Origin: Mariniblastus fucicola | GTDB taxonomy: Bacteria > Planctomycetota > Planctomycetia > Pirellulales > Pirellulaceae | DNA length: 64,000 nucleotides | NCBI RefSeq assembly: GCF_008087665.1 | Contig: NZ_CP042912.1 | Location: 3,968,001-4,032,000 of the forward strand | Direction: 5' to 3' | Part shown: piece by piece, positions 1 through 9,215 of the stretch | How positions within the stretch are numbered: the first letter of the stretch is position 1 | How the letters are laid out: each line of letters starts with the position of its first letter | Notes under the pieces: model-generated | Databases searched by the model: none | What the model was told of the DNA's origin: nothing | What the model saw: the letters and a program-made list of their open reading frames with translations, nothing else | Translations under genes and position numbers: made by a program

Positions 1-641
1 TCGATCGCGTTTTCGTAGTCGGCGAGATGAGTCTTGTTTGTCGTGCCGACTTCTTTCAGTTTCGCGCCGCTGCACTCCATGACGTCGGGCAAACGATAGC
101 TGCCGCCGATTTCGATCAGTTGGCCGCGAGAAACAATGACTTCCTTACCCGCCGCCATCGCGGACAGAGTCAGCATCGTTGCAGCGGCGTTGTTATTGGT
201 AACAACGGCAGCTTCAGCGCCTGTCAGTTCACAGATCAGACGTTCCACAGCCTTGACACGCTGCCCGCGTTCACCAGTCATCAGGTTGATTTCGACACTG
301 GCGTAGCTCTTGGAGTTTTCGTTCACCGCTGCCAGAGCCTCGGCGGCCAAAGGTGCTCTGCCGAGTCCCGTATGCAGCACGATGCCGGTTCCATTGATGA
401 CGCGGCGGAGATACGGTCGCTCTTCGTTGCTTAACCAGTCCGCAATTCTGTCCGCCATCTCTGTCGGCGTCGGGATCGGAACCTCTCCAGCGGCGTCGAC
501 GACTTGCGTGCGGAGATCATCCAGAAACGTGCGAACACCTTCGGCGACAACGCCATGATTGATGTTCTCGACCATCTTTTTCAGCTGCGGGCTTTCCAAA
601 AGTTGGCTGACCGAAGGGAGATTGCGAAGGATGTTTGACAT
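1..641 (-). CDS. selA: L-seryl-tRNA(Sec) selenium transferase, N-terminal part (cut by window edge)
   Basis: PLP enzyme that converts seryl-tRNA(Sec) to selenocysteinyl-tRNA(Sec) using selenophosphate. The frame opens with ATG at 641 (MSNILRNLPSVSQLLESPQL) and stays open to base 1, so about 213 residues of a family usually near 450-470 are visible; the PLP-lysine half lies outside. Seen motifs typical of SelA are RRVINGTGIVLHTGLGRAPL at about residues 79-98, SVEINLMTGERG around residue 116 and the run LTGAEAAVVTNNNAA near residue 138, which forms the start of the PLP fold. It follows the HU-like gene on the same strand, 87 bases apart. Its presence says the organism makes selenocysteine, which fits the TGA-containing thioredoxin at 7866. 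selB often sits beside selA and would be expected off the left edge. Identification is strong from sequence alone. Confidence 0.93.
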   Translation of the reverse strand, partial: MSNILRNLPSVSQLLESPQLKKMVENINHGVVAEGVRTFLDDLRTQVVDAAGEVPIPTPTEMADRIADWLSNEERPYLRRVINGTGIVLHTGLGRAPLAAEALAAVNENSKSYASVEINLMTGERGQRVKAVERLICELTGAEAAVVTNNNAAATMLTLSAMAAGKEVIVSRGQLIEIGGSYRLPDVMECSGAKLKEVGTTNKTHLADYENAI

Positions 642-7372: not shown

Positions 7373-7865
7373 ATCGGAATTCCTTGAGTGAGTTTTGAGT
7401 CCCACAGCAACGAACCAACAGCGCCGTCCACGTACACCCCTGCGCGGGCACGGACACATAATCACCAATCGTGACAACGTCACTGAGGTAAAGAAGTTGG
7501 GTCGAAATTGAATGCGGGATAGCCAAGCAGTTTTGCGGAAACTGTCCTTAGCCGTCCTATTTTTCGGCAAACTGAACGTGCGCATTAGAATAATTTCGTT
7601 CGATACAAACGGGAAATCTGGAAAACTTCCACACGGTTTGTGAAGCTGGGGAACGCGGGGCGAGCTTGCCGTTACGACTTTGCGGGCAAGGCAATTGGTG
7701 ACGCTGGCACGTCGATTTGCCCGAAAAATTGAGCTCCAGGACGTGGATCAAAATCTAGCTGGTAAACACAAAGCAAGCCGCTGACTTTGGGCGACGACTC
7801 CCCGCCTGCGTTGTGATGGCAGATGATTCATTACATTCGCCGCAAGCACGAACTACAATTCTGCG
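7373..7865. other. Intergenic region between divergent secretin and selenoprotein genes
   Basis: About 490 bases with no convincing gene. It must hold the promoters of the minus-strand secretin operon and of the plus-strand thioredoxin. The only structure I noticed is a short CTTGCC/GGCAAG stem at 7665-7690, too small to interpret. I found no clear sigma-70 boxes by eye. Confidence 0.6.
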
Positions 7866-8447
7866 ATGTCGCCAACTTTCACATTTGGGATCCTCACGTG
7901 CTTGCTCGTGGCCGCTGCGTTCTGGCGTTTAACGGCCAGCCAAAGGCACGCTTTCGCTTGCGCCGCGGCGATGCTGGTCCTTTTCGTCGGATGCGACTCA
8001 AAGCAAGCCACCCAAATCAATCTGAACAGCCAATTGAAAGTCGGATCAGCGTTCCCGGACATTTCAGGCACTGACATCGACGGCGAATCCATTTCGATTT
8101 CGGAGTTCAAAGGCAAAGTTGTCTTATTGGATTTTTTCGGCGACTGGTGACCGTCGTGCAAGAGCTTCTATTCGACCGGGCGGTCGCTCGTTGAAAAATA
8201 TCCCGAATCCGATTTCGCGATCGTCGGCATGAATGCTGGTGATCGGCGTGACCACATTCAGCAGGTGTTTTCGTTGCGGAAACTGCCATGGCGAAGCTTT
8301 TACTTCGGTCAGGATTACACGATCCCGGATTCCGTCGGCGTGAATTCATGGCCGGTTTACATCGTGCTGGACCGAGACCAGAACATTCGCTCAATCTCAC
8401 ATCAAGTTGACCATCGGGCTCTCGAAGAACTGCTGTCATCCCGCTAA
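7866..8447 (+). CDS. TlpA/ResA-like thioredoxin, predicted selenoprotein (in-frame TGA at 8148)
   Basis: 193 residues if the TGA at 8148-8150 is read as selenocysteine (residue 95). Thiol-disulfide oxidoreductase of the TlpA type, exported: a hydrophobic N-terminus leads to a possible lipobox LFVGC at residues 39-43. The fold is intact on both sides of the TGA: VGSAFPDISGTDIDGESISI, then FKGKVVLLDFFGDW, the TGA, and PSCKSFYSTGRSLVEKYPES, then the cis-proline loop VNSWPVYIVLDRDQN near the end. Thioredoxins of this type carry GxWCxxC here, so the TGA falls exactly on the first active-site cysteine, giving W-U-P-S-C. A hairpin starts at the TGA (see 8146-8188), and selA is in the same window. 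The alternative, a nonsense mutation, is less likely given full conservation downstream. Start at 7866 has no strong ribosome site. Confidence 0.85.
8146..8188 (+). promoter_or_regulatory. Candidate bacterial SECIS hairpin overlapping the TGA codon
   Basis: Bases 8146-8155 (GGTGACCGTC) pair with 8179-8188 (GGCGGTCGCT) as ten consecutive pairs including three G-U pairs; the TGA itself sits inside the lower stem. The 23-base interior can form a smaller AGA/TCT stem with loop GCT at 8164-8166, putting the apical loop 14 bases after the TGA. Known bacterial SECIS elements also begin at the UGA and place their loop about 15-25 bases downstream for SelB binding. Pairing was done by hand and not folded by program. 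Confidence 0.5.
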
Positions 8448-8495
8448 GCTTGCGGTTTTGCGAACTCAGCCCCAACTCAGCCTGAAGGTTTTTCG

Positions 8496-9215
8496 ATGTC
8501 TAATATTCGTGTCGTTGTCATCGGCGGTGGTTCCGGAATGGGTCGATCGACAGCAAGACTGCTCGCCGCGAAAGATGGCTTCGACGTTGCAATCGGTGGA
8601 CGGACTCTCGAAAAACTGGCGGAAGCCGCTGAAGGAACTTCGATCCGAACTCACGCGATCGACGTCGCGGATCGAGCCAGCGTCAACGAATATTTTCAGT
8701 GGGCCGAGTCCGAGCTTGGCGGTCCGATCGACGTGATGGTCAACGCTGCCGGGATCAACATTCCCGACCGCAGCATGCAACAGATGTCTCCCGAGCAATG
8801 GGATCAGATGATCGCAGTGAATTTGACAGGAGCCTACAATTGCATGCACGCTGTGTTGTCCGACATGCGTTCGCGGAAAGATGGCCTGATCATCAACATT
8901 TCGTCGGTCGCCGGGAAACGTGCGATCGCACTTGCCGGAGTCGCTTACTCGGCCTCGAAGTTTGGCATGACTGCGCTGGGAACATGTGTTTCAAACGAAG
9001 CCGCCGACGACGGAGTCCGAGTCACAAACGTCTATCCCGGCGAAGTCGATACTCCGCTGTTGAAACAACGGCCGACGCCTGTCACCGAAGAACATCGCGG
9101 TCGGATGTTGCAAGCCGATCATGTTGGCGAGTTGGTCGTTTCGCTGATTGAGCTGCCGCGAGAGGTCCACGTTCCGGAAGTTGTTGTGAAGCCGCTTACG
9201 CAAGAGTGGTGTTAG
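8496..9215 (+). CDS. Short-chain dehydrogenase/reductase (SDR)
   Basis: 239-residue classical SDR, NAD(P)-dependent oxidoreductase, cytoplasmic. Cofactor motif VVIGGGSGMGRSTA at the N-terminus (GGGxGxG), NAAG in VDVMVNAAGI-like context (DVMVNAAGINIP), catalytic Ser in IINISSVAGKRAIA and Tyr/Lys in AYSASKFGM (YxxxK), then VYPGEVDTPL. Complete length. It begins 49 bases after the predicted selenoprotein and may be cotranscribed. Substrate cannot be deduced. Confidence 0.92.
   Translation: MSNIRVVVIGGGSGMGRSTARLLAAKDGFDVAIGGRTLEKLAEAAEGTSIRTHAIDVADRASVNEYFQWAESELGGPIDVMVNAAGINIPDRSMQQMSPEQWDQMIAVNLTGAYNCMHAVLSDMRSRKDGLIINISSVAGKRAIALAGVAYSASKFGMTALGTCVSNEAADDGVRVTNVYPGEVDTPLLKQRPTPVTEEHRGRMLQADHVGELVVSLIELPREVHVPEVVVKPLTQEWC

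Follow-up and report, generated by a model that had tools for sequence, protein, structure and literature searches.

The planctomycete Mariniblastus fucicola very probably makes an exported lipoprotein with a thioredoxin fold, of the ResA/TlpA type; its catalytic CxxC motif, read from the sequence, would be U-P-S-C by insertion of selenocysteine (Sec) at an in-frame UGA. The gene lies in a window of 64,000 nucleotides (contig NZ_CP042912.1, positions 3,968,001 to 4,032,000), and all positions below refer to this window. Three observations speak for a selenoprotein: its UGA aligns with a redox Cys; relatives keep the UGA with coding sequence after it; and selA, selB, selD and tRNA-Sec are present in the genome.

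The gene and its features

The following features are discussed below:

7866..8447, + strand: Sec-TlpA-like gene of 193 codons, counting the TGA as Sec; start uncertain (7866 ATG, 7902 TTG or 7908 GTG)
7992..7994, + strand: lipobox-like Cys (LFVGC), read from the sequence by the lipobox rule
8148..8150, + strand: in-frame UGA, predicted selenocysteine 95, from the frame and comparison with homologues
8157..8159, + strand: resolving Cys 98 of U-P-S-C, read from the sequence
8171..8195, + strand: bacterial SECIS hairpin of 10 bp that carries one bulged C; folded locally, -10.0 kcal/mol
8182..8185, + strand: apical loop, GGUC, 31 nt downstream of the UGA
1..629, - strand: N-terminal part of selA (selenocysteine synthase), running off the window; the whole gene (G000:C1:3967271-3968629) scores 555.4 bits
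4193..7585, - strand: secretin-like divergent neighbour gene, a same-locus marker also found in genome G016; the name is a sequence reading only

The frame runs from ATG 7866 to TAA 8445-8447 and includes TGA 8148-8150 in frame; with this TGA read as Sec, the product has 193 residues and the motif W-U-P-S-C. The downstream half has no stop codon besides the terminal TAA. A sequence-only reading had proposed this frame, and its in-frame TGA and length of 193 residues stand. Its start at 7866 is uncertain, since three in-frame start candidates (ATG 7866, TTG 7902, and GTG 7908) lie upstream of the Cys at 7992-7994, which we take to be lipobox-like.

Fold, family and likely role

Three domain models match the joined product across the TGA: Redoxin (48.4 bits; cut-off 26.6), Thioredoxin_8 (48.3 bits; cut-off 27), and AhpC-TSA (45.9 bits; cut-off 26). 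Thiol-disulfide oxidoreductases from the PDB, including ResA, likewise align across it. These alignments agree with those to homologues in placing TGA 8148-8150 at the first Cys of the thioredoxin CxxC, just as the sequence-only reading had it. An AlphaFold2 model built from 16 sequences has a mean pLDDT of 84.2, with block means of 89-98 for residues 61 to 190 and low confidence over the first 50 residues, the start region. In the PDB, the model is most similar to 4nmu, an entry of the ResA type (E 2.6e-12), and its fold neighbours include TlpA, ResA, CcmG, and a thiol peroxidase. The protein has a thioredoxin fold with UxxC in the CxxC place at the start of a helix, as is characteristic of the ResA/TlpA family.

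The window protein falls below the curated NCBIfam cut-offs for ResA (48.7 bits against 170), TlpA (33.2 against 230), and DsbE (26.4 against 123.15), and so is best called ResA/TlpA-like rather than a curated member. Two further models, NF041054 (ResA-like WAxxUGC) and NF053656 (TUGYCR), also describe thioredoxin-fold (seleno)proteins, but with motifs unlike that of the window protein, which scores 15.2 bits (cut-off 300) and 18.7 bits (cut-off 100) against them. No model reached its cut-off in an NCBIfam scan of five proteins.

Members of the ResA/TlpA family function in the assembly of cytochrome c or copper centres. The ResA, TlpA, and CcmG thiol-disulfide oxidoreductases have the fold and the CxxC position in common with the window protein, whose N-terminus is probably anchored as well; they carry Cys at the first CxxC position, whereas the window protein has a predicted Sec there. 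The gene product would be exported and is probably a membrane-anchored lipoprotein. In the periplasm, its Sec/Cys pair may undergo dithiol/selenenylsulfide exchange. The simplest role would be that of a reductase, fed by one of the genome's two DsbD-type transmembrane carriers (two DsbD_TM genes score over cut-off).

Alternatively, Sec might be inserted into a protein whose activity is that of an oxidant, an isomerase, or a peroxidase and not of a reductase. The match to the Redoxin and AhpC-TSA models is as good as that to the thioredoxin models, and the fold neighbours include a thiol peroxidase beside TlpA, ResA, and CcmG. Retention of the UxxC pair and the presence of two DsbD-type genes speak for the reductase, neither of them decisively; we consider a non-reductase role unlikely, though a serious contender.

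Homologues and the same-locus orthologue

A search of 60 genomes (the window's own included; 28 in its genus) gave at least 150 matches; among the matches listed, 78 have an internal TGA and 72 are free of stops. From these listed matches we retrieved every TGA form except G024:C169, 77 in number, and 14 of the stop-free ones. In all 76 fetched sequences with a single TGA, it occupies the matching codon and the motif reads UxxC. The TGA forms among the matches listed are spread over 24 of the 28 genomes in the genus and three others (G034, G045, and G058); each of these genomes contributes one to six fetched copies. At this site the homologues have either Sec-TGA or Cys; close relatives with neither, which would have told against the sequence-only reading, were not among them. 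That reading had also proposed a search for TGA/Cys pairs in related genomes, and such pairs exist: L023 and L027 are a close one.

The closest relative among the matches listed, L010 in genome G016, is 66% identical and keeps the TGA, in the motif W-U-G-A-C. As in the window, a divergent secretin-like gene lies beside it (62% identical over 327 aa), and this common neighbour identifies it as the same-locus orthologue. Both have a lipobox-like site, LFVGC in the window protein and AFAGC in the orthologue. Over the 97 codons downstream of the TGA, the two genes differ at 25, 16, and 65 first, second, and third codon positions, with 69% amino-acid identity; over 40 codons upstream, the differences are 13, 4, and 24, with 68% identity. 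These are raw differences, for which dS is not estimable. Both halves look like protein under constraint. The unbroken coding across TGA 8148-8150 that was noticed at the outset is borne out by the domain models and PDB matches that span it and by the predominance of third-position changes; many disabling mutations in the downstream half would have undermined it, and that half is intact.

A tree of 90 sequences requires six Sec/Cys changes, three of them forced by well-supported branches; the tree rests on few columns and has several long branches, and the window's small clade (L009, L010, and L016) is weakly placed.

The residues before the motif vary with its form. Among the fetched genus copies, most Sec forms have GDW-U (exceptions are L016, with GHW-U, and L034, L036, L103, L109, and L108), and all seven Cys forms have GHW-C; some Sec forms beyond the genus have GHW-U. 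The one fetched TGA form beyond the 76, L108 (G015:C115:10516-11190), has TGA at both CxxC positions (U-G-P-U), with the same hairpin one codon further on. By its sequence, it is a candidate double-Sec protein, or a decaying copy. The window's own genome has a second Sec-TlpA-like gene, L051 (G000:C1:5525977-5526348), with a UGPC domain near the C-terminus of an open frame of 443 codons that itself ends with TGA.

Selenocysteine machinery

The window's genome (G000) is one contig of 6,570,840 bp. Its selA (555.4 bits; covering the first 629 bases of the window), selB (355.7 bits), and selD (265.1 bits) all score over curated cut-offs, and tRNA-Sec (70.1 bits, anticodon TCA) is also over its cut-off. 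The sequence-only reading could not have survived a genome devoid of selB, selC, and selD; the complete set was found. The selD gene sits inside a 730-residue open frame (L047 328-2520), whose N-terminal part reads like an NAD(P)H oxidoreductase, as in a fusion of the Ndh-SelD type. Such fusions are described in PMC2398784.

Among the 60 genomes, selA scores over cut-off in 41. These comprise 21 of the 27 genomes for which a TGA form is listed and 20 of the 33 for which none is. Six TGA-bearing genomes lie below the selA cut-off; among them, G022 and G024 have selA fragments of 245 and 62 bits, close to the ends of contigs, and G003, G019, and G022 have selB over cut-off. Both selA and selB are below cut-off in G002, G004, and G024, drafts that are 89, 80, and 71% complete; G024 has a 28-bit selB fragment. 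Thirteen genomes have neither selA over cut-off nor a TGA form, and selB was over cut-off in none of the six of these that were checked. Four same-genus genomes (G006, G010, G014, and G021) have selA and no TGA form among the matches listed.

The probable insertion signal

When the TGA copies are aligned from the UGA, they have in common a hairpin, ACGAGC-GGUC-GCUCGU, with its loop 31 nt after the UGA. Across 63 distinct sequences, the inner four pairs form in 62, the inner five in 58, and all six in 56; the loop is GGUC in 57. The one sequence that fails the inner-four test is the G016 orthologue (mismatch 31-42); its GGUC loop survives, closed by three pairs, as part of a longer fold with interruptions (-10.0 kcal/mol).

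Codon choice under the hairpin is nearly invariant. Arg is CGG in 73 of 73 cases, whereas in the rest of these genes CGG accounts for 23% of 471 Arg codons. By the same comparison, Ser is TCG in 65 of 65, against 17% of 551, and Leu is CTC in 73 of 76, against 18% of 689. As judged from these sequences, the codons are fixed beyond the protein's need; the copies are related, so neither the codon counts nor the hairpin counts are independent. Counting named pairs in 66 sequences (the 63 and three loci from named genomes), 98.0% of pair cells are standard, a level reached by none of 500 shuffles. Only two double changes occur, both in L016, and the covariation score of 0.061 is nearly equalled by a +3 slide (0.059); covariation therefore supports the hairpin weakly, and codon choice more strongly.

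The complete hairpin goes with the UGA. Thirteen of 14 Cys genes lack the six-pair form; L032 retains five of the six, and only L027 (G026:C166) has all six. L027 has the exact hairpin and groups with Sec copies, pairing closely with L023 (G011:C129); its full hairpin within a Sec group fits a recent Sec-to-Cys change, and the sequence looks like one with a leftover (vestigial) SECIS.

In the window gene, the hairpin at 8171-8195 is UUCGAC-(C)-GGGC-GGUC-GCUC-GUUGAA (-10.0 kcal/mol). A free 60-nt RNA prefers another fold, which pairs bases beside the UGA (-12.6 kcal/mol, versus -10.5 when the apical stem is forced to form; the stem then has a probability of 0.022 in the free RNA). Once the first 14 nt are left out, to mimic a ribosome covering them, the hairpin reaches a probability of 0.94. 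It fits the bacterial model given in PMC13188914, with its GGUC loop at 31 nt and, folded locally and containing one bulge, -10.0 kcal/mol; the stem without the bulge has -6.2 kcal/mol, so the energy limit is reached only with the bulged lower stem.

A generic scan of the bSECIS type does not discriminate, and the model alone is loose: of 2357 TGAs, 51% pass the loose form and 5% reach -6.3 kcal/mol, with the window gene at -6.2. The family-specific hairpin core at this spacing occurs at one of 2359 TGAs in the window, where 0.07 would be expected. A first fold of the UGA region alone gave a z of -1.13, with 29 of 200 shuffles as good; taken singly, the region gave no hint of special structure, and the shared hairpin emerges only when many copies are compared. 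Rfam gave no match in 7800-8500.

These observations suggest how the UGA would be read. A ribosome would reach UGA 8148-8150, and SelB carrying Sec-tRNA(Sec) would bind the GGUC-loop hairpin at 8171-8195, so that Sec is inserted instead of a stop. We infer Sec insertion because machinery, signal, and conservation coincide; the Sec machinery, the conserved TGA, and a hairpin conserved beyond the protein sequence all favour the W-U-P-S-C product that the sequence-only reading had predicted.

Decoding of the TGA as an ordinary residue (Trp or Cys), through a code change or a suppressor and without selenium, is most improbable. Homologues do carry Cys at the site. TGA nonetheless serves as a stop in this genome, as seen from L051, which ends with TGA, and from the 38 stop-to-stop frames of at least 300 codons in the window (mechanical frames, not all of them genes), of which 13 end with TGA, and a full Sec system is present, with the complete hairpin tied to TGA copies; we reject a code change on these grounds. 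That the TGA is instead a recent nonsense lesion or a sequencing error, leaving only a 94-residue fragment, can be dismissed as next to impossible: the frame is formally interrupted, but the orthologue at this locus has its TGA at the identical codon, 76 of 76 fetched single-TGA homologues have theirs at the matching one, changes after it fall mostly at third positions in a constrained downstream half, and the hairpin is conserved.

Distribution across the phylum

The Sec-containing protein had seemed unusual for a planctomycete. That impression does not hold: the family is widespread both in the genus (24 of 28 genomes, among the matches listed) and in the phylum. A covariance model of the UGA and hairpin, run with an E limit of 0.001 and with strict filters at the cost of weak matches, finds at least 76 of 392 genomes sampled evenly across the phylum: the window's own, one from its family, one from its class, and 73 that share only its phylum. 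The best-ranked 30 loci of this search all have the TGA and the exact 16-nt hairpin; being best-ranked, they favour exact copies. In the window's own genome, the hairpin model has 26 matches, two of them good (the window gene and the 443-codon paralogue) and the other 24 at E 1 or worse; with only these two TlpA-like genes found, it reveals no other selenoprotein families.

A scan of named genomes used Cys-form peptide patterns and so under-samples Sec forms; among the matches listed, it found TGA at the site in 5 of 80 loci. The remainder include two chance-like frames only (L173 and L192) and 11 loci without a motif recognisable by pattern. Three of the five Sec loci have the exact hairpin: those of Pirellulaceae M30B19, a Verrucomicrobia groundwater MAG, and Phycisphaerales UBA5793; the other two lack it. 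The Verrucomicrobia gene with its exact hairpin (L118) lies on a 7.6-kb contig of a MAG (JACQWK010000491.1), so mis-binning is possible, as is gene transfer.

This distribution favours, somewhat above even chances, a multi-copy radiation across the whole phylum, made up of Sec-containing ResA/TlpA-like lipoproteins that share one near-frozen SECIS word, ACGAGC-GGUC-GCUCGU, passed between distant lineages. Such a radiation would include at least one copy that returned to Cys with its signal kept and one with seemingly Sec at both positions (U-G-P-U), in a family that fits no curated selenoprotein model among those compared.

Relation to known selenoproteins

The GOS marine metagenome survey (2008) predicted 321 sequences of UxxC Trx-like 1 (COG0526) and 68 of Prx-like 3 (pfam08534) (PMC2398784, in its available text); neither 'planctomyc' nor 'TlpA' occurs in its main text. 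By description, Trx-like 1 is, like the window's family, thioredoxin-like with Sec in UxxC and with Cys homologues. UxxC thioredoxin-like selenoproteins were thus predicted in 2008, and this kind of protein is already known. A 2026 inventory lists, in its accessible part, a UxxC redoxin, a UxxC Prx-like thiol:disulfide oxidoreductase, and a UGC-containing TlpA family (PMC13188914). Like the window protein, these have a PF08534/PF00578-type fold with Sec in the redox motif; the TlpA family has UGC where the window protein has UPSC, and the two UxxC entries are compared by domain description.

Selenoproteins have been reported in planctomycetes for two algal isolates (PMC4807772, available text). 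The accessible portions of PMC5029168 and PMC12013277 have no passage on planctomycete or thioredoxin terms. In the open-access literature, as far as its text is available, we found no paper on a planctomycete Sec-TlpA family, which is not proof of absence. What appears to be new is the multi-copy spread and the near-frozen insertion signal.

Implications

The window holds a very likely selenoprotein in a place where the gene could be called as two fragments. The family offers a searchable signature, a UGA with a fixed hairpin 31 nt on, with up to six copies per genome among the matches listed. The near-identical signal in distant lineages makes signal constraint testable against gene transfer; Sec-to-Cys exchange is also testable, with L023 and L027 as a natural pair. 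If the radiation is real, the phylum of Mariniblastus would rank as a major reservoir of selenoproteins in the periplasm, which annotation may overlook.
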